Assembly (NCBI GenBank): GCA_019637195.1
Contig: JAHBWA010000006.1
Location: 1 to 64,000 of the forward strand
Length of the DNA stretch: 64,000 nucleotides
Direction of reading: 5' to 3'
Origin: Labilithrix sp.
GTDB lineage: Bacteria > Myxococcota_A > Polyangia > Polyangiales > Polyangiaceae
Shown: one piece after another, positions 7,589-64,000 of the stretch
How the letters are laid out: each line of letters begins with the position of its first letter
Numbering within the stretch: the stretch's first letter is position 1
Translations under genes and position numbers: made by a program
Notes under the pieces: model-generated
Seen by the model: only the letters and a program-made list of their open reading frames with translations
What the model was told of the DNA's origin: nothing
The model's database searches: none

Positions 7589-10300
<2,712 letters not shown>

Positions 10301-10460
10301 CGGGCGACCTGTCCGCGCGGCGGTCCCAGGGCCGCCCGCGCGCGTCGGGCCTGCGCGTCGGAGGTGCGCGCATCGGGGCGCGCGCGGACTCCGCGGGGGA
10401 CGCTGCGAAGGCTGCGAGAACATGTCCAACGCGCCGCGCGCACGCTACGATCTCCCCGGA

Positions 10461-11078
10461 ATGCGCCGCCCCGTCGCGCTGGTCGTCTCGCTCGCGCTCG
10501 GCCTCGCGGCCGCGTCGGCGCTGGTCACGGGGTGCACGTTCCTCATCTCGTTCGACGACGTCCCGGAAGACGCCGCGCTCGAGCCGGTCGAGGCGAGCAC
10601 CGGCGACGGCGACGCGCAGGTCGACGACGCTCCCGGCGTCGAGGACGCTGGCGCCGACGTGCCCCCCTCGTTCCCTCCGCCTTGCGATCCGACCTTCCCC
10701 CTCGACGCCGTCGACTGCACCGGCGTCCCGCGCGCGACCTGCGCGTCGAGCGCCGCGTTCGCCAGCTACCCGGCCGGGGGCGACCGCGCGAACGATCTCG
10801 TCGTCTGCAGCGGCGGGCGCGCGACCTGCGTGCAGCACTGTCCGTCCGGCTGCGCGGTCATGCCCGGGGGCTTCCCCGATCAGTGCAACGACTGTACGGG
10901 GCGCGACGACGGCTACTACTGCGGTCGCGATCTCCGAGGGTGGGCGCCCGAGACGTTCGACCTGGCGGTGCAGTGCCGTGAAGGCGGGACCGTTCGCGGT
11001 GCCATCTGCGGCGCGAACAAGTGCGCCTCGGCGTGTCCGCGGGCAGAAGGGCCGTTGCCCGCCTGCTGCGTGCCGTGA
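10461..11078 (+). CDS. Cys-rich putative lipoprotein
   Basis: The frame can begin at 10422, but the ATG at 10461 places a normal signal peptide at the N terminus (MRRPVALVVSLALGLAAASA) ending in the lipobox-like LVTGC. The mature part begins with an acidic D/E/A-rich linker. About 16 cysteines are then spaced through the C-terminal 130 residues, suggesting a disulfide-stabilised surface domain. No known family is recognised. A TACGAT hexamer nine bases before the ATG may serve as a -10 element. It is a monocistronic unit between gyrB and clpB. Confidence 0.65.
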   Translation: MRRPVALVVSLALGLAAASALVTGCTFLISFDDVPEDAALEPVEASTGDGDAQVDDAPGVEDAGADVPPSFPPPCDPTFPLDAVDCTGVPRATCASSAAFASYPAGGDRANDLVVCSGGRATCVQHCPSGCAVMPGGFPDQCNDCTGRDDGYYCGRDLRGWAPETFDLAVQCREGGTVRGAICGANKCASACPRAEGPLPACCVP

Positions 11079-55684: not shown

Positions 55685-56683
55685 GTGCGGTGGGCGCGCG
55701 CGGCAGCGGTGGGCGGCATCGTCACGAGCGCGACGACCGCCGCGCGAGCGCACGAGCCGCCTGCGCTCCCTCTCGAGCTCGCGTGGGAGGCGCCGGCGGG
55801 GTGCCCCGACGCGGCGTTCGTCGCCGCGCGGGTCGAGGCGATCCTCCGCGGCCCGCCGGAGGCGCCGGTGGCGGTCGTGGCGCGCGGCACCGTGGAGCGC
55901 GCGGGCGCCGCGTACCACCTCGCGCTCACGCTTCGCACCGGAGACCTCGAGGAGACCCGCGCGATCGACGCCGCGTCCTGCGCCGCGCTCGCCGAGGCCG
56001 CCGCGGTCGTCGTCGCCCTCGCGATCGATCCTTCGAGGGACGAGGCTTCGACCGCGCCCGCGCCCGCGCCCACGCCTGCTCCCGCTCCAGTGGCCGCGCC
56101 TCCGCCACGCACGGCTCGTCCGAAGCCCAAGCGATCGCCGTCCTCGCCGCGCACGCCGTCGCCCGTCTCCCGCGTGGCGCTAGGCGTCGGCGGAGCGCTC
56201 GGCCTCGGCTCCCTCCCGGAGGCGAGCGGCGCCGTCCTCGTCTCCGGCACGCTCCGGCACGATCGCGTCCGCGTCGGGCTGCTGGGCTCCGTGACGATGC
56301 CCGTGAGCGCTACCTTCGATCGGACGGCGGGCGCGACGTTCCATCAGCTCGAGGTTGGCGCGTTCGGGAGCTATCTCGTTCCGATCGGCGCGAGGGTCTC
56401 GGTCGGCCCGGCCGCGAACCTTGAGCTCAGCCACGTGCGCGTGCGGGGCTTCGGCATTCGGGCGCCGAAGCTCACCACGACCTTCTGGCCCACCGCGGTC
56501 GTCGGCGCGCGGCTCGAGGTCAGGATCGCTTCTCGACTCGGCCTCTTCTCCCGCGCGGAGGGCCTCTTTCCATTCGCCGCGCCCGCGTTCTCCCTCGCGA
56601 CCGCCGAGGGCGGCGTTCGCCTTCACGAGCCGGCCCTCCCGTCGCTAAGGCTGAGCCTCGGGCTCGAAATCGTCCTGCCGTGA
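55685..56683 (+). CDS. Secreted protein with Pro-linker and barrel-like C domain
   Basis: A 332-residue protein with a signal peptide (RWARAAAVGGIVTSATTAARA) and an N-terminal domain of about 90 residues containing two cysteines. A Pro/Ala/Arg linker covers about residues 120-155. A C-terminal region of alternating short beta strands follows (VALGVGGALGLGS, RVRVGLLGSVTMP, HQLEVGAFGSYLVPIG), as in outer-membrane or surface barrels. This layout recurs next to ECF sigma genes in myxobacteria as far as I recall, but I cannot name the family. GTG 55685 has TAGTCT six bases upstream, so it may be leaderless. It is the first gene of the surface-protein cluster. Confidence 0.75.
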   Translation: MRWARAAAVGGIVTSATTAARAHEPPALPLELAWEAPAGCPDAAFVAARVEAILRGPPEAPVAVVARGTVERAGAAYHLALTLRTGDLEETRAIDAASCAALAEAAAVVVALAIDPSRDEASTAPAPAPTPAPAPVAAPPPRTARPKPKRSPSSPRTPSPVSRVALGVGGALGLGSLPEASGAVLVSGTLRHDRVRVGLLGSVTMPVSATFDRTAGATFHQLEVGAFGSYLVPIGARVSVGPAANLELSHVRVRGFGIRAPKLTTTFWPTAVVGARLEVRIASRLGLFSRAEGLFPFAAPAFSLATAEGGVRLHEPALPSLRLSLGLEIVLP

Positions 56684-56833
56684 TCACTTTTCGTGACGAC
56701 CGGAGGCCGCGCCGGAAGTGTGTGGGCCATGGTCCTTCGCTTCGGCGCCGCCCCCGACGGTCCGCGCCCGGCATCGGGCCTGGCGCTCTCGGGGGTAACC
56801 TGTCCGCCTCCCCCGGCATCAGGCATACAGACC

Positions 56834-57403
56834 GTGGCCCTCCTCGAAGAGACGGTGCTCGTACCCCGACCGGCGACCAAGGACTTCGCCGAGCTCTACC
56901 GCGAGCACTTCGCCTACGTGTGGAGGAGCGCGCGCCGTCTCGGAGTGCCTCAGGCCGAGGCCGACGACGTGGTTCAGGAGACGTTCCTCACGGTGCACCG
57001 CCTGCTCGCCACTTACGCGGCGCATGGCGGGGAGCGATCGTGGCTCTTCGCCATCTTGTTCCGCGTCGTCCAGCGACACCATCGCACGACGCGGCGCCGC
57101 TCGGGCCTGACGGACGGCGGGGCGGATCTCGACGCGCTGCCCGGGTCGGCGACGAACGCGCCGGATCGAACCGCGGAGGCCAACGAGTCCGTTCGCGTCC
57201 TCGAGGCGATCATGGACGCGCTCGATCCGGAGAAGCGCGCGGTGCTCGTCCTCGCGGAGCTCGAGGAGAAGCCCCTCGCCGAGATCGCCGAGATCCTGGA
57301 GATCAACGTCAACACAGCGGCGAGCCGTCTCCGGCTCGCGCGCGAGCACGTCGAGGCGGCCATGGCAAGGCATCGCGCGCGCGACGGTTGGAGGTCTCCG
57401 TGA
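56834..57403 (+). CDS. ECF-type RNA polymerase sigma factor
   Basis: A 189-residue sigma70-family protein. Region 2 reads FAELYREHFAYVWRSARRLG...ADDVVQETFLTVHRLL. Region 4 reads LDPEKRAVLVLAELEEKPLAEIAEILEINVNTAASRL. There is no region 3. The start is uncertain: GTG 56834 is chosen because family similarity begins at once, but ATG 56729 and GTG 56693 are open in frame and would add a Pro-rich extension. The gene overlaps the next (GTGA). It probably directs transcription of this cluster and is controlled by its membrane partner; both points are inference from context. Confidence 0.85.
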   Translation: MALLEETVLVPRPATKDFAELYREHFAYVWRSARRLGVPQAEADDVVQETFLTVHRLLATYAAHGGERSWLFAILFRVVQRHHRTTRRRSGLTDGGADLDALPGSATNAPDRTAEANESVRVLEAIMDALDPEKRAVLVLAELEEKPLAEIAEILEINVNTAASRLRLAREHVEAAMARHRARDGWRSP

Positions 57404-58179
57404 GCATCGGATCGAAGAAAGGCTCGTCGCTCTTGGGCCCGCTCGCGGACGCGTACGAGCCGACCGCTGCCGACGCCGACCGCGTCTTCGCGCGACTCCA
57501 AGCTTCGCTCGGTCAGCCGAGCGCGGCGCCCTCGGTCGACGAACCTGCGCCCGCGAAGCCGTCCGTGTCGCCCCGCGCGCCGCGGAGCGCGCGCCCGTCG
57601 GGAGCCGCCGGCGCCGGGAAGAAGGCGATCTTCGTCGGCCTGTCGTGCGCCGCGCTCGTGCTGGTCGGCGCGTTCGCGATGACCCGGAGCCCCGAGGCGG
57701 CGGACGGCCTGGCGGCGCCGCCCGCGTCGACCTCCGCGTTCGTACCGGCGGCGCGCGGACCCTCGCTGGAGCCGAGCAGTGAGGGTGAAGGCGCGCCCGC
57801 GGTCCCGTCGGTCTCGGTCGACTCACTGCCGAGCGCGCCCGTGCGGACGAGCGGACCCGCGAAGCCGACGCTGGCGCCCGCGGCCACCGCGTCCGACACC
57901 CTCGAGCGCGAGGCGCGGCTCCTCGCCGACGCGCGGCAAGCGCGGCAGGCCGGCGATGAGACCCGCGCGCTCGCGTTCCTCGACGAGCACGCGCGCACGT
58001 TCCCGAACGGATGGCTCGCGGGCGACCGCGCGGCCGAGCGCGTCGTGGTCCTGTGCGGGCTGGGGCGCCGCGAGGAGGCGCTCCGCGAGGCCACCGTGTT
58101 CCTCGACGGGCGGCCGAAGGGGCCGCTCACGCGACGCGTCGAGACGAGCTGCGCGGGCTCGAACGCCGGCGGACGGTAG
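57400..58179 (+). CDS. Single-TM partner of the ECF sigma factor
   Basis: GTG 57400 overlaps the sigma stop by 4 bp and follows GGAGG. The 259-residue protein has a cytoplasmic N terminus of ~70 residues, with a short motif GPLADAYEPTAADADRVFARLQ. One membrane helix (AIFVGLSCAALVLVGAFAM, about residues 76-94) leads to a Ser/Pro/Ala linker and a C-terminal pair of TPR-like helices (LADARQARQAGDETRALAFLDEHARTF...). It lacks the zinc-binding HxxxCxxC of common anti-sigma factors. Position and topology make it the likely sigma regulator. Confidence 0.75.
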   Translation: MSIGSKKGSSLLGPLADAYEPTAADADRVFARLQASLGQPSAAPSVDEPAPAKPSVSPRAPRSARPSGAAGAGKKAIFVGLSCAALVLVGAFAMTRSPEAADGLAAPPASTSAFVPAARGPSLEPSSEGEGAPAVPSVSVDSLPSAPVRTSGPAKPTLAPAATASDTLEREARLLADARQARQAGDETRALAFLDEHARTFPNGWLAGDRAAERVVVLCGLGRREEALREATVFLDGRPKGPLTRRVETSCAGSNAGGR

Positions 58180-58195
58180 CGAGGTGAAGTCGACC

Positions 58196-59422
58196 ATGAT
58201 CAAGGCATCGTCGCCGCGTCTCGCGTGGCTCTTCGTCCTCGCGCCTGTCACCTGCGTCGTCGCCGCCTGCGTGAGCCGGACCGACGTCTCGATCGGGAGC
58301 GACTGCCAGTCGGGATTCTGCGAGGAGCCGCCGGCGTTCACGCCCACGGGAGACGGCGGCGAAGACGGCGGAGAGGGCGGGGCGTCCCAGCCGGAGCCGC
58401 CGGTGCTCGCGTGCATCGGGACGGAGTGTCCTCCGCCGTACACGACCTGCGCGGAGACTCCTTCGTTCCGCTGCGGGACGAACCTGATGAACGATCCGGC
58501 GAACTGCGGCGCGTGCGGAGTGAGCTGCCTGGGGTTCGAGGGCTTGAACCTCGGCGCCCGATGCGTCGAGGGCGCCTGCGCGTTCGAGTGCCTCATCCGG
58601 AGCGGTCCGATGGGGGAGTCCTACGAGTTTCGCAACTGCAATGGTCTGCTCGACGACGGCTGCGAGGTCAACATCACCGCCGATCCAGCGAACTGCGGCG
58701 CCTGCGGGAACGCGTGCGCGAAGGGCGAGCGCTGCATCAAAGGAAAGTGCGGCTGCACGGCGGGCAAGATCGACTGCAGCGGCCGCTGCGTCGACCCGCG
58801 CTTCGACGACTCGAACTGCAGCGCTTGCGGCAATCAGTGCGAGTGGATGCCCGACGACGCGTGCGATCCGGCGATCCCGAACGTGTACTACGGCTGCGTG
58901 CTCGGGCAGTGCGGGAAGCTCAAGTGCTCCGGCGGCTTCGCGGACTGCAACGGTGATCTCGCCCAGGGCTGCGCCTCCGACGGCTGCGAGACCGACATCT
59001 CGACGGACCCGAACCACTGCGGCGCGTGCGGGGTCCAGTGCGGTCCAGGCCAGGAGTGCCGCAACGACGGCAACGGTCCGCAGTGCCTCGACACGTGCGA
59101 GAAGGCAGGCCTCACGCAGTGCGCCTTCGGTTGCAGCGATCTCGTCGGCGACCGCTTCAACTGCGGGGCATGCGGGCACTCGTGCCCGAACCCGCGCGCG
59201 AACGAGCAGGTGTCCTGCAAGAAGGGCCTGTGCGCGACGGAGTGCCTGCCCGACTTCGCCGACTGCAACGGCGATCCGTCGGACGGCTGCGAGGTCGATC
59301 TCCGTGTCCACCCCGCCCACTGCGGCGCGTGCGGAAACCGGTGCAACTACGGCGCGGGGCAACCCTGCATCGAGGGCAAATGCCTGATGGTCGAGTGCGA
59401 CGCGGGAGTGGTGACCAAGTGA
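58196..59422 (+). CDS. Cys-repeat lipoprotein
   Basis: A 408-residue lipoprotein: signal peptide LAWLFVLAPVTCVVAAC with a good lipobox (VAAC), then an acidic Gly-rich linker. At least five repeats of the type D-P-x-N-C-G-A-C-G-x-x-C follow (NCGACGVSC, NCGACGNAC, NCSACGNQC, HCGACGVQC, NCGACGHSC, HCGACGNRC), alternating with DCNGDxxxGCE segments. The ~50 cysteines suggest a rod of disulfide-knotted modules displayed at the surface. Such repeats are common in myxobacteria and of unknown function. It is the first of a run of lipoproteins, and its stop overlaps the next GTG (GTGA). Confidence 0.85.
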   Translation: MIKASSPRLAWLFVLAPVTCVVAACVSRTDVSIGSDCQSGFCEEPPAFTPTGDGGEDGGEGGASQPEPPVLACIGTECPPPYTTCAETPSFRCGTNLMNDPANCGACGVSCLGFEGLNLGARCVEGACAFECLIRSGPMGESYEFRNCNGLLDDGCEVNITADPANCGACGNACAKGERCIKGKCGCTAGKIDCSGRCVDPRFDDSNCSACGNQCEWMPDDACDPAIPNVYYGCVLGQCGKLKCSGGFADCNGDLAQGCASDGCETDISTDPNHCGACGVQCGPGQECRNDGNGPQCLDTCEKAGLTQCAFGCSDLVGDRFNCGACGHSCPNPRANEQVSCKKGLCATECLPDFADCNGDPSDGCEVDLRVHPAHCGACGNRCNYGAGQPCIEGKCLMVECDAGVVTK

Positions 59423-60684
59423 CGTGCGCGAAGCAAGAGCGGCGTCGCACGCCGGGGGGCGCGGTTACGATCCGGCGCGTGGGCGTTGCCGGCGTCCTCG
59501 CCGCGGGCGTCGTCGCTTCGTTCGCGAGCTGCGCGTCGAACGAAGAGGCGGGGCCGCCGCTCCCTGCGGACCCGATCACGTTGCCCGAGGCCGCGCCGCC
59601 CGCGGACGTCGAAGCGGGCCCGAGCGACGCCGGCTGCGACGCGGGCGATCCCGACTGCGTGACCGAGATCGCGTCGTGCGACTCCGTCGAGTGGTGCTCG
59701 GTGCCGTACGACGTCAGCCCGTTCTTCACGCTGACGAAGGTGTGGGGCACCAGCAAGACGGACGTCTGGGCGGTCGGCTCGGGCGGGACGATCCTCCACT
59801 TCGACGGGACGAAGTGGCTCCGGACGCCGACCGGCGTCCAGAACACCTTCTACGACGTCTGGGGCAGTGGTCCGAACGACGTCTGGGCGGTGAGCAGCAG
59901 CACCGTGCTCTTGCATACTGCAGGTTTCAAGGACGGCGCCGCCGTCTGGGAGAACCTGCCGACGGCGGAGTCCGAGTTCAACTCGGTCTTCATCCGCGCG
60001 ATCTGGGGCTCATCGGCCACCGACGTGCGCATCGGCGGCCGCGCGTTCGACCTCGCGGAGTCCCCCTCGGGGATCGGCGACCAGTTCGTGCTCACGCCCT
60101 CCGCGGACGGTGGCGTCGCGTGGAGGCCGCTCCCCGGGACCCACACGGTGACGGACATCTGGGGGAGCTCCGCGGGAGACGTGTGGATGACGGCGGACAA
60201 CAGCGTCTACGTCGGCTTCCAGCGCGGGATGACGCTCCACGGGACGCCGTCGGCCGCCGGCGCGGACGCCGGCGGCGTCGAAGACTCGCTCACGTGGACG
60301 GAGGTCGACAGCCAGTCGAACCTGACCCTCGAGTCCGTCTGGGGGAGCTCGGCGAGCGACGTGTGGGCGGTCGGGCCGGCCGGCACGATCCGCCACATCA
60401 CGCCGGCCGACGCTCGCTGGCAGAAGGTCGACGCCAAGACGACCAGCGATCTCCACGCTGTCTGGGGCTCCGGCCCGAACGACGTCTGGGCAGTCGGAGA
60501 GGCGGGCACCATCCTCCACTACGACGGCGCGTCCTTCGAGCCCGCGAGCGCACAGCTTCCCCTCGGGAAGAAGCCGGACCTCTACGGCATCTGGGGCAGC
60601 GGCTCCGACGACGTGTGGATCGTCGGCGACGGCCTCATCCTGCACTACACCGGACCGAAGAGCGGCAGCGGAGGTGCGAAGTGA
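59419..60684 (+). CDS. Lipoprotein with seven WGSG-DVWAVG propeller repeats (I)
   Basis: A 421-residue protein starting at GTG 59419 inside the previous stop. The signal peptide GVAGVLAAGVVASFASC precedes a DAG/DxD-rich acidic linker. Seven repeats of about 45-60 residues then share the core (V/I)WG(S/T)(G/S)xxDVW(A/I)VGxxGTIxHxDG: VWGTSKTDVWAVG, VWGSGPNDVWAV, IWGSSATDVRIG, IWGSSAGDVWMTA, VWGSSASDVWAVG, VWGSGPNDVWAVG and IWGSGSDDVWIVG. Seven units predict a single seven-bladed beta-propeller. Ligand unknown. Its stop overlaps the next gene (GTGA). Confidence 0.85.
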   Translation: MTCAKQERRRTPGGAVTIRRVGVAGVLAAGVVASFASCASNEEAGPPLPADPITLPEAAPPADVEAGPSDAGCDAGDPDCVTEIASCDSVEWCSVPYDVSPFFTLTKVWGTSKTDVWAVGSGGTILHFDGTKWLRTPTGVQNTFYDVWGSGPNDVWAVSSSTVLLHTAGFKDGAAVWENLPTAESEFNSVFIRAIWGSSATDVRIGGRAFDLAESPSGIGDQFVLTPSADGGVAWRPLPGTHTVTDIWGSSAGDVWMTADNSVYVGFQRGMTLHGTPSAAGADAGGVEDSLTWTEVDSQSNLTLESVWGSSASDVWAVGPAGTIRHITPADARWQKVDAKTTSDLHAVWGSGPNDVWAVGEAGTILHYDGASFEPASAQLPLGKKPDLYGIWGSGSDDVWIVGDGLILHYTGPKSGSGGAK

Positions 60685-61907
60685 TCGCGTGGTCCTCACG
60701 TTCGAGCGCGGTCGCGCTCGCCGCGGCCGCCTTCGTCTTCGCCGTCGGCGCGTGCTCGGACTCTGGCGACGACGTGGCCGCGGGGCCCGACCAGGACGGC
60801 GGCGCCGTCCTCCCCTCGCACGACGCGGCCCTCGAGCCCGAGGCCGCGCTGTCGGACGCGGGCGCCGAGGCGGCGACGAAGATCTGCTCCGATCAGGGCT
60901 TCTGTCACTCCGAGCTCCCGCCGCGCCAGAACCTCCGCGGCGTGTGGGGCGACGGACAGGGCGTCGTGTGGGCCGTGAGCCTCGAAGGAAATATCCTTCG
61001 ATGGGACGGCGCCGAATGGAAGGTGCATGCCCGGCGCGTCGTCGAGGACGAGGGCATGTTCGCGGTGTGGGGCACCGGGCCGACCGACGTGTGGGTCGCC
61101 TCGAGCGCGGGCTTGCTTCACGGGACGGGCGCGACCTCTGCGGCCCTCGTCTTCGCGCCGGTCGATCTCCCGGGCGACGCGTCGATCCCGATCAAGTCGG
61201 TGTGGGGCACCGGGCCGAGCGACATCTGGGCCGCCGGGGGGATCGAGTCGTTCGCCGAGTGGCCGCCGATCTTCACCGGTAGGCTCGTGCACTTCACCGG
61301 CGCGGTCGACGCCGGCGGCGCCGGCTGGACGCTCGACGACGCGTCGAACGAGGGCGTCGCGTTCCGCGCGGTCTTCGGCAGCGCGACCAGCGGCGTCTGG
61401 GTCCACGGGACCGTGGCGGGCGAGTTTGGCGACGTCTCGGCGCGAGTGCTCCGCCGCGCGCCCGGGAGCTCGACGTGGACCGAGCTCACCGTGCCCGCCG
61501 ATCCCGGCGGTGGATGGCGACCGGAGCCCCAGGAGATCACGGCCGCGGCGCTGAGCTCCGACGCGTCGCTCTGGCTCAGCGGCCACACCGGGAACTTCGA
61601 CCTCGCGCGTTGGCACGGCAAGGCCGCGGCCGGCGGCGCGAGCTTCGACTGGACGTTCACGAGGCAGTTCTTCTGGGATCGCCCGGCGTACGCCTTCTGG
61701 GGGCTGTCGCCGAACGAGACGTGGGCGGTCGGCGAGTCGGGTCTCGTCGCTCGCTGGGACGGAGCGGCGTGGTCTCAGGCCGTGATCCGCGTCTCGGAGG
61801 TGCCGGTCGGACAGTCGTTCTGGGCGATCTGGGGGACGAGCCACGACGACTTCTGGATCGTGGGCGACGAGGTCGCGCTCCACAAGACCAAGCAGGGCAG
61901 GCCATGA
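60681..61907 (+). CDS. Lipoprotein with seven WG..DVW propeller repeats (II)
   Basis: A 408-residue paralog of the preceding protein. GTG 60681 overlaps the upstream stop. The signal peptide ends FAVGAC with SDSGDD after the cysteine, followed by an Ala/Asp linker. Seven repeats can be counted: VWGDGQGVVWAV, VWGTGPTDVWVA, VWGTGPSDIWAAG, VFGSATSGVWVHG, a degenerate SSDASLWLSG, FWGLSPNETWAVG and IWGTSHDDFWIVG. The repeats are more divergent than in the neighbour. The pair probably arose by tandem duplication; equal copy number suggests the propeller fold is conserved. The stop overlaps the next ATG (ATGA). Confidence 0.85.
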   Translation: MIAWSSRSSAVALAAAAFVFAVGACSDSGDDVAAGPDQDGGAVLPSHDAALEPEAALSDAGAEAATKICSDQGFCHSELPPRQNLRGVWGDGQGVVWAVSLEGNILRWDGAEWKVHARRVVEDEGMFAVWGTGPTDVWVASSAGLLHGTGATSAALVFAPVDLPGDASIPIKSVWGTGPSDIWAAGGIESFAEWPPIFTGRLVHFTGAVDAGGAGWTLDDASNEGVAFRAVFGSATSGVWVHGTVAGEFGDVSARVLRRAPGSSTWTELTVPADPGGGWRPEPQEITAAALSSDASLWLSGHTGNFDLARWHGKAAAGGASFDWTFTRQFFWDRPAYAFWGLSPNETWAVGESGLVARWDGAAWSQAVIRVSEVPVGQSFWAIWGTSHDDFWIVGDEVALHKTKQGRP

Positions 61908-63322
61908 GGTCGCGGATGAATCACTCGCGCAGGCGACTCGCGATCCTCATCGCCGGAGCGGTATGCGCGTCCGCCGCCGTGGTCGCGTGCAGCTCCGACG
62001 ACACGCGTCCGAGCTTCGACGCTCCGGACGGCGGCGGCGCGAACCTGCCCGACGCGGGCCCGGGACAGGACGCGAACGCGCCGGGGGACGCGGGCCCTAC
62101 CAAGCCACCGTTCGATCCGGCGGACGAGCCGATCGTATGTGCGGGGACGCCGTGCGCGGTGGAGCTCGTCGCCGGCGAGCACCACTTCTGCGCACGCATG
62201 AGCGACGGCAGCGTTCGCTGCTGGGGTGACAACGCGTACGGATCGCTCGGGGTCGAGGAGGCGCCGGCGAGCGAGGGATCCGACGGTGGCGTGCTCGCGG
62301 CGCGCGTGACCGACCTCGCGGGTGCGACGCAGCTCAGCGCCGGCGGCGCGACGACCTGCGCGCTCACCGGCGACGCCGGGATCGTGTGCTGGGGTGGGAA
62401 CGAGCATGGCCAGCTCGGGCTCACGGTGTCGCCACCGACGGTCGACGGCGACCCGCACGCGACGCCGGCGCCGGTGGCGCTCGCCGCGAGCGCGCTGCGC
62501 GTCGATGTCGGGCAGCGGACCGCCTGCGCGACGCTCACCTCGGGCGACGCACACTGCTGGGGCGACAACGCGCAGAAGCAGCTCGCGCGGACGACCGAGG
62601 ACGACGTCGGCGGTCCAGCGAAGGCCGAGCTCGGGGAGCTCGCCGTCCGGCGCACCGCCGCCGGCACGGGCTCGAGCTTCGCGATCACCGACGCGGGCCT
62701 GGTCTCGTGGGGTGCGCTCGGCGGACCGGAGGGGGTCGTCGCCGCACGCGTGGCGTCCGTGAGCCCCGATCCGCACCCGCTCGCGGTCCTCCAGGGCCCC
62801 GTCTCGAGCCTCTCCGTCGGCTCGACGCGGCTCTACAGTCCGCCCGGAGGTGGCTTCCCGCGGCCACCCCCGCAGGGGATCGCGCACGCCTGCGCGATCG
62901 TCTCCGGGGAGGTGTTTTGCTGGGGCGCCAGCCTGATGGGCGCGCTCGGCACTGGGTTGCCCGAGCCGTCGTCGACGCCGCTCGTCGCGCTCGTCGCGAG
63001 CGAGGAGGCGTGGCCGCAACAGGTCGCGTGCGCCGGAGACGTCTCGTGCGTCCGCTTGACGGACGGGAGCGTGCAGTGCGCCGGCGACAACACGACGGGC
63101 GTGCTCGGCAAGGAGCCCGAGACCGATCCCTTCTCGATGTTCTTCGCGCCGGTCCCTTCGTTCACCGGTCACGCCGCGCGGATCGCGACGTCCGTGGCGA
63201 CCGCGTGCGCCCTCGTGCAGGGCGGGACCGTCGTGTGCTGGGGGAGCAACGAGCGTGGCGAGCTCGGGCAGGGGACGGCCGACGCGGACCCGCACACGAA
63301 GCCGATCTCGATTCGCTTCTAG
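61904..63322 (+). CDS. RCC1-repeat lipoprotein, seven repeats
   Basis: A 472-residue protein. ATG 61904 overlaps the upstream stop. The signal peptide ends SAAVVAC, then a DAG/DAN linker. Seven RCC1-type repeats follow, with the core GxVxCWGxNxxGQLG: SVRCWGDNAYGSLG, GIVCWGGNEHGQLG, DAHCWGDNAQKQL, LVSWGALGGPEG, EVFCWGASLMGALG, SVQCAGDNTTGVLG and TVVCWGSNERGELG. Seven RCC1 units close into one seven-bladed propeller, as in eukaryotic RCC1. Bacterial versions are mostly extracellular and uncharacterised. It is the third propeller protein in a row. Confidence 0.88.
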   Translation: MRSRMNHSRRRLAILIAGAVCASAAVVACSSDDTRPSFDAPDGGGANLPDAGPGQDANAPGDAGPTKPPFDPADEPIVCAGTPCAVELVAGEHHFCARMSDGSVRCWGDNAYGSLGVEEAPASEGSDGGVLAARVTDLAGATQLSAGGATTCALTGDAGIVCWGGNEHGQLGLTVSPPTVDGDPHATPAPVALAASALRVDVGQRTACATLTSGDAHCWGDNAQKQLARTTEDDVGGPAKAELGELAVRRTAAGTGSSFAITDAGLVSWGALGGPEGVVAARVASVSPDPHPLAVLQGPVSSLSVGSTRLYSPPGGGFPRPPPQGIAHACAIVSGEVFCWGASLMGALGTGLPEPSSTPLVALVASEEAWPQQVACAGDVSCVRLTDGSVQCAGDNTTGVLGKEPETDPFSMFFAPVPSFTGHAARIATSVATACALVQGGTVVCWGSNERGELGQGTADADPHTKPISIRF

Positions 63323-63336
63323 AAAGGTGAGAGACG

Positions 63337-64000
63337 ATGAATCGCTCGGATCGCTCGGTCTCCGTCGCTGCCTCGATCGTCTGCGCCGGCGCGGCCGTCG
63401 TGGTCGTGCTCGCGGCGTGCTCCGATCGCCAGCCCTTCGCCGACACGACGACCCCCGCCTTCGATCCACTCGACGCGACCGCGCCGGAGTCTCCGCCGGC
63501 GACCTGCGGGGTCCACTGCTCGCGCGACCTGAAGGAGGTGCTCGACGGGTGCGAGGGCGCGGAGACGCTGATCCAGCGATGCAACGCCGACCAGGGCTGC
63601 GGTGACGGCAAGTGCGTCGACGCGTGCACGGCGGCCGTCCTGACGAAGGGCTCGGCCGGCTGTGACTTCTGGACCGTGCCCCCGGACAGCCCCTTCGAGG
63701 GCCGCGGCGGCTGCTTCGCCGCGATGATCGCGAACACGTGGGACCGCGGGGTGACGATCTCGGCCGAGCTCGGCGCGGCCAACCTCGACATCTCGAAGGC
63801 GACGTACACCGTCGATCGCTCCGGGCAGGAGCCGATCTACACGCGCCTCGACGGTCCGCTCGCGCCGGGGCAGGTGGCGATCGTCTTCTTCGCCCACGAC
63901 GACACGAACCACGAAGAAGGCGCCGCGCGCTGTCCGCCGACGGTTACGCCGGCGATGCTCGTGGACGCCGCCAAGCACGGCACCGGGATCGCGAAGGCCT
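63337..64000 (+). CDS. IgGFc-binding-like lipoprotein (3' partial)
   Basis: Starting at ATG 63337 behind AAAGGTGAGAG, the frame stays open to the end of the window (221 residues seen). The signal peptide ends VVVVLAAC, a lipobox. A short Cys module (CGVHCSRDLKEVLDGC...CGDGKCVDAC) precedes the domain GCDFWTVPPDSPFEGRGGCFAAMIANTW, then APGQVAIVFFAHDD, CPPTVTPAMLVDAAKHGTG. This has the pattern of the myxobacterial IgGFc-binding-protein-like family. The remainder lies outside. It follows the RCC1 gene after 14 bp and is part of the same operon. Confidence 0.8.
   Translation, partial: MNRSDRSVSVAASIVCAGAAVVVVLAACSDRQPFADTTTPAFDPLDATAPESPPATCGVHCSRDLKEVLDGCEGAETLIQRCNADQGCGDGKCVDACTAAVLTKGSAGCDFWTVPPDSPFEGRGGCFAAMIANTWDRGVTISAELGAANLDISKATYTVDRSGQEPIYTRLDGPLAPGQVAIVFFAHDDTNHEEGAARCPPTVTPAMLVDAAKHGTGIAKA

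Follow-up and report, generated by a model that had tools for sequence, protein, structure and literature searches.

Candidate ECF-sigma switches beside lipoprotein cassettes, present in dozens of diverged copies in a Labilithrix genome

The FecA-FecR-FecI system consists of a TonB-dependent transducer, a one-span sigma regulator, and an ECF sigma factor, and the Bacteroides SusCD loci form many paralogues, each with an ECF sigma factor and a one-span regulator beside surface lipoproteins. Here, we describe a gene block that resembles both. Like FecA-FecR-FecI, it combines a barrel with a periplasmic N-terminal domain, a partner that spans the membrane once and has its C-terminal part in the periplasm, an ECF sigma factor, and adjacent surface output genes; however, its barrel is 8-stranded and of the OmpA class rather than a 22-stranded TonB-dependent receptor, its partner ends in a TPR-like domain, and its output consists of lipoproteins. 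Like the ECF-sigma-linked SusCD loci, it occurs in many copies, each with its own ECF sigma factor and one-span regulator and with lipoproteins adjacent, but it lacks glycan enzymes and any homologue of SusC or SusD, and its barrel and lipoprotein families differ. The block also recalls RcsF/OmpA, in that its small OmpA-class barrel is accompanied by a lipoprotein whose N-terminal segment recurs, although it has no Rcs genes and coupling between its barrel and lipoprotein is putative. We found no description of the module in the mostly open-access literature searched.

The stretch of DNA that we analyzed (the window) is 64,000 nucleotides from a Labilithrix sp. (contig JAHBWA010000006.1). An original prediction, made from this sequence, had placed eight co-oriented genes in its last 8.3 kb (55685-64000), and we found all eight there, on the + strand and at the same positions. 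The first (55685-56683) encodes an outer-membrane barrel protein with a signal peptide, an N-terminal periplasmic domain with two invariant cysteines, a Pro-rich linker, and an 8-stranded OmpA-class barrel. Its AlphaFold2 model (pLDDT 80) matched OmpA in Foldseek (E = 3e-7), and residues 159-332 of the model gave Z scores of 17-18 to OmpA and OmpW. Judged by this model, the window barrel is an OmpA-class 8-stranded barrel; it is not a FecIRA-type TonB-dependent receptor barrel, the model being OmpA-class and without a Pfam match. Neither the barrel nor the partner matched any Pfam or NCBIfam family. The second gene (56729-57403) encodes a sigma factor with regions 2 and 4 only (Pfam Sigma70_r2, PF04542, and Sigma70_r4_2, PF08281, both above cut-off; TIGR02937 at 79.9 bits against a cut-off of 42.9), which makes it an ECF (group IV) sigma factor. 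The partner gene follows (57400-58179); the model of its product has a short cytosolic helix, in a part that is itself short and of low model confidence, one transmembrane helix (residues 76-94), a periplasmic linker, and a TPR-like domain (residues 164-257), for which a fold search returned weak TPR matches (best E = 0.027). We consider the barrel a probable sensor and the partner a probable anti-sigma factor.

Five lipoprotein genes lie downstream. The first (58196-59422) encodes a Cys-repeat, STIG1-like lipoprotein (PF04885, E = 1e-7; lipobox VAAC) that scored 99.9 bits against NCBIfam NF041328 (MXAN_6577-like), just below the curated cut-off of 100; NF041328 itself gives no function. Two WGSG..DVW propeller lipoproteins (59419-60684 and 60681-61907) were identified with our own profile HMM and by lipobox analysis, and the first has no sequence relative in the PDB at E = 0.01. 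These are followed by an RCC1 propeller lipoprotein with a lipobox (61904-63322; PF25390 at E = 3e-45, PF13540, and PF00415) and by an IgGFc-binding-domain lipoprotein, which begins at 63337 and continues past the window end at 64000 to 65139. The last belongs to PF17517 (256 bits against a cut-off of 25.6; E = 6e-76); in the locus that extends beyond the window (L009), its gene occupies 8338-10140, and the next gene called is on the opposite strand. Across the copies described below, a lipobox was detected in 53-81% of the products, depending on which of the five downstream genes is considered, and no barrel or partner had one.

The original prediction also held that four junctions are 4-bp start/stop overlaps, and these lie exactly where predicted: GTGA at 57400/57403, 59419/59422, and 60681/60684, and ATGA at 61904/61907. 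Across copies, such an overlap is possible at 47 of 54 sigma-partner, 44 of 48 Cys-lipoprotein-propeller, and 34 of 34 propeller-propeller junctions, but at only 8 of 60 barrel-sigma junctions. The 4-bp overlaps of the block exceed chance.

To ask how widespread the block is, we searched the genome of the same organism (10.1 Mb in 381 contigs) for copies. A DNA search with the window gave 77 matches, the partner gave 35, and the sigma factor 66; 60 regions were taken and annotated with profile HMMs built for each gene. The barrel-sigma-partner triad is present at ∼43 loci, 34 Cys-lipoprotein genes pass the length filter, and 21 loci read from the HMM annotation carry all eight genes in order, the others being rearranged or cut off at the end of a contig. 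On average, two copies share 23% identity in the barrel, 37% in the sigma factor, and 43% in the Cys-lipoprotein. Judged from these sequences, the copies are old paralogues, because the identities are low and only one pair of sigma factors is more than 80% identical. We considered and rejected an assembly artefact as the source of the copy number, given that sigma identity averages 37% and that at least 18 cassettes are also present in G098, a second genome of ∼50 contigs. Contigs C290, C360, C101, and C319 each carry several modules, two of those on C290 in tandem and in the same direction. Two near-identical cassette halves stop at the edges of C325 and C361 (loci L011 and L012), as do several other copies; the assembly may be broken at such edges by a recent duplication or by a mixture of strains (estimated contamination, 5.5%). 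One copy (L120, C101:53962-69435) looks decayed, because its IgGFc-binding gene lies in fragments in different frames (10003-10825), and three loci (L101, L108, and L126) have an additional RCC1-like gene after the IgGFc-binding gene.

The barrel is present in 85 of 98 genomes of the family and in 17 of 113 genomes sampled over the phylum. In other genera, it usually adjoins a sigma factor and a partner (32 of 40 further loci), without the propeller cassette. Of 61 loci from other genera, 38 have a lipoprotein gene immediately following the partner gene, compared with 6.3% of background windows, and at ∼38% of other-genus triads no adjacent lipoprotein was detected. The cassette Cys-lipoprotein is confined to the genus (8 of 12 genomes, against 0 of 96 others); among the matches listed, there are at least 18 copies in the genome of the window, at least 18 in G098, 12 in G096, and 1-4 in five more. 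The triad is family-wide with interchangeable lipoprotein outputs, and the propeller cassette is genus-specific. Gene order is the same in Myxococcales bacterium 68-20 and Labilithrix sp. ACE_MYX7, so that the conserved synteny of sigma and lipoprotein genes proposed as a check of the original prediction was borne out in these two and in the genome of the window. Relatives did not show the sigma gene and the propellers unlinked: the cassettes that we examined were linked to a sigma gene, except for one (L173), which has no sigma gene nearby yet carries a strong promoter-like site.

Motif discovery on the regions upstream of the sigma genes returned a bipartite element, a T-tract and TGATC followed 18 bp on by CATTA. 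Motif likelihoods also exceeded those of shuffles for regions upstream of the barrel and of the Cys-lipoprotein and for the coding DNA of sigma, so the likelihood comparison alone is not specific, and the evidence that we rely on is the held-out tests. The best site scored 13.4 on average in other genera, compared with 3.0 in shuffles; with a matrix rebuilt from all sites, 84 of 94 sigma genes had a site. At 40 loci taken afterward, 29 of 34 sigma genes (85%) had a site, compared with 11% in shuffles. In the window, the promoter-like element (56686-56721) begins three bases past the barrel stop and ends seven ahead of the sigma ATG, with the -35 sequence TGACG at 56694-56698 and a -10-like GAAGTGT near 56715-56721. 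Because of this position, the sigma gene probably starts at ATG 56729 rather than at 56693 or 56837, the starts first called. Upstream of the barrel, partner, second propeller, RCC1, and IgGFc-binding genes, the element was found at or near chance. A promoter shared with the barrel was rejected, since 13% of barrels had a site at a low threshold, which is about chance; for the first propeller the figures were 22% at the low threshold and 3% at a stricter one. A promoter ahead of the Cys-lipoprotein was mostly absent from canonical loci, and strong sites occur there in rearranged ones. The predicted single transcriptional programme is thus upheld in part. Synteny, the promoter, covariation, and moved cassettes join the sigma gene to the lipoprotein genes, but the promoter-like element sits between barrel and sigma, so that the unit driven by sigma probably does not include the barrel.

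We then compared the sigma factors with their sites. Among 87 non-redundant sigma factors, the strongest covariation (0.57; mean of the permuted maxima, 0.21) linked a -35 base to residue 144 in the aligned portion, which lies where the region-4.2 recognition helix begins. The residue goes with the -35 dinucleotide: Gly with TC in 49 cases, Gln with TA in 19, and Asn with CG in 15. The window sigma has Asn in its recognition helix (codon 57311-57313), and its site is TGACG. On the sigma tree, 8 of 14 changes of the residue fell on branches with a change of the -35 dinucleotide (1.3 expected; p = 2.5e-6, an optimistic value because the test ignores branch lengths). Residue 144 ranked first of 157 columns in this dinucleotide test, whereas the tree test lacked specificity for it when run on -35 position 12 by itself.

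Natural rearrangements gave a further view of the pairing. At L114, the sites of a divergent Cys-lipoprotein gene and of a propeller gene are both of the variant that the local sigma has, at L115 an unusual site variant is common to the barrel and a divergent Cys-lipoprotein, and L098, L215, and L231 also have extra sites. In six comparisons of relocated cassette genes, the site of their own sigma was first among 86 in five cases and second in the other (Fisher p = 6e-7; for L115, the site on the sigma side was picked by eye, and L225, an orthologue of L098, the second site of L172, and L093, with ranks of 8, 60, and 54, were omitted from this value). The L225 site ranked only 8 of 86, and the second site of L172 and that of L093 did not match that of their own sigma. 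Moved cassettes usually carry a promoter that matches their own sigma. At the level of sequence, the idea that the sigma factor would recognize its own promoter and drive the cassette is well supported. We also observed that L098 (C77) and L225 (G096:C24) have an extra RCC1 gene between the partner and a Cys-lipoprotein with its own promoter-like site, and that in L172 (from 68-20) the sigma and partner genes run opposite to the barrel and cassette, and the divergent promoter region there is overlapping and palindromic.

We reasoned that the best explanation, and one that we hold to be reasonably likely, is an ECF module akin to cell-surface signaling that drives surface lipoproteins. The one-span TPR partner would hold the sigma factor, and the OmpA-class barrel, through its periplasmic domain and perhaps a docked lipoprotein, would report the state of the surface to the periplasmic TPR domain of the partner. 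Released sigma would then transcribe from its own promoter between barrel and sigma, a step to which the promoter element, covariation, and synteny point, and such self-transcription would raise the amounts of sigma and partner and produce the lipoproteins encoded downstream. Suggestively, a segment that the first lipoprotein often carries after its Cys, described below, may couple it to the barrel. The output for this genus would be the five-lipoprotein cassette (Cys-rich, two propellers, RCC1, and IgGFc-binding), which exists in dozens of duplicates whose sigma-promoter pairs have diverged; a cell may therefore have many separately switchable surface complexes. The co-divergence of barrel, sigma, and partner, the frequent lipoprotein after the partner in other genera, and the structure models also favor this reading, whereas the short cytosolic part of the partner, its lack of a match to known anti-sigma domains, and the other-genus triads with no adjacent lipoprotein weigh against it. 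Surface adhesion, prey or kin recognition, and envelope sensing, as suggested in the original prediction, are candidate roles.

The same arrangement could serve homeostatic control of assembly, in which the sigma factor responds when its own lipoproteins are exported incompletely or not at all, as an envelope-stress circuit for one surface complex and with no outside ligand. Sensor and output are encoded together, and the first lipoprotein often has a hydrophobic-x-hydrophobic-Gly segment after its Cys. In our first set, this segment was found in 9 of 17 lipoproteins directly after the partner at other-genus loci and in 5 of 26 in the comparison group (p = 0.04); since the motif was defined after inspection of that set, the sole independent test is that on fresh loci, at 9 of 21 and 1 of 18 (p = 0.009). 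The N-terminal 40 residues of the Cys-lipoprotein also follow the triad a little more closely than the rest of the protein (correlation with the partner of 0.18 and 0.04-0.07, respectively). However, the diverged copies with their distinct promoter pairs number in the dozens, a large set of circuits for a single housekeeping function, and we regard assembly control as unlikely.

We place at a similarly low level a reading compatible with the signaling module, in which self-activating sigma loops would be bistable and each cell would display one or a few coats, as antigenic or kin diversity. It would fit a copy number ranging from 0 to more than 30 within the genus, promoter variants that differ between modules, and cassettes and triads that have been recombined. 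Co-divergence points to the last: it is appreciable among barrel, sigma, and partner (r = 0.50-0.65; 0.50 for sigma and partner) and among Cys-lipoprotein, propeller, RCC1, and IgGFc-binding proteins (r = 0.68-0.93) but weak between triad and cassette (about 0-0.38). Because each block co-diverges internally and only weakly with the other, this suggests that triads and cassettes have recombined with each other.

The partner might instead be a scaffold or co-activator of the sigma factor rather than an inhibitor. As the original prediction had noted, it has no zinc anti-sigma motif; there is no Cys ahead of its transmembrane span and so no HxxxCxxC of the zinc-binding (ZAS) class, and none of the known anti-sigma domains in Pfam or NCBIfam matched it. 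Its position, translational coupling, single transmembrane helix, and co-divergence with the sigma factor nevertheless fit the usual one-span anti-sigma arrangement, and we find a scaffold or co-activator rather improbable. Finally, that unrelated surface genes merely neighbor an ECF sigma gene by chance, as the triads without a cassette in other genera might hint, is contradicted by dozens of copies in a fixed order, conserved overlaps, a conserved promoter, and the same order in 68-20 and ACE_MYX7, and can be set aside.

Returning to the signaling module, we tentatively propose a broader picture, which we think plausible but somewhat short of even: more than 30 lipoprotein complexes would each have their own sigma-promoter pair and barrel-TPR switch, with cassettes swapped between switches, and the triad would be an undescribed class of trans-envelope signaling, present family-wide and elsewhere in the phylum, that controls surface lipoproteins. 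If so, an OmpA-class barrel and a TPR-tailed partner would take the place of the TonB-dependent receptor and FecR, roughly 3% of the genome length, by our estimate, would be spent on paralogous surface modules, and many natural ECF sigma/promoter pairs with a simple, readable specificity code would be at hand. The ways in which these myxobacteria vary their surface in adhesion, predation, or recognition would then become open to experiment.
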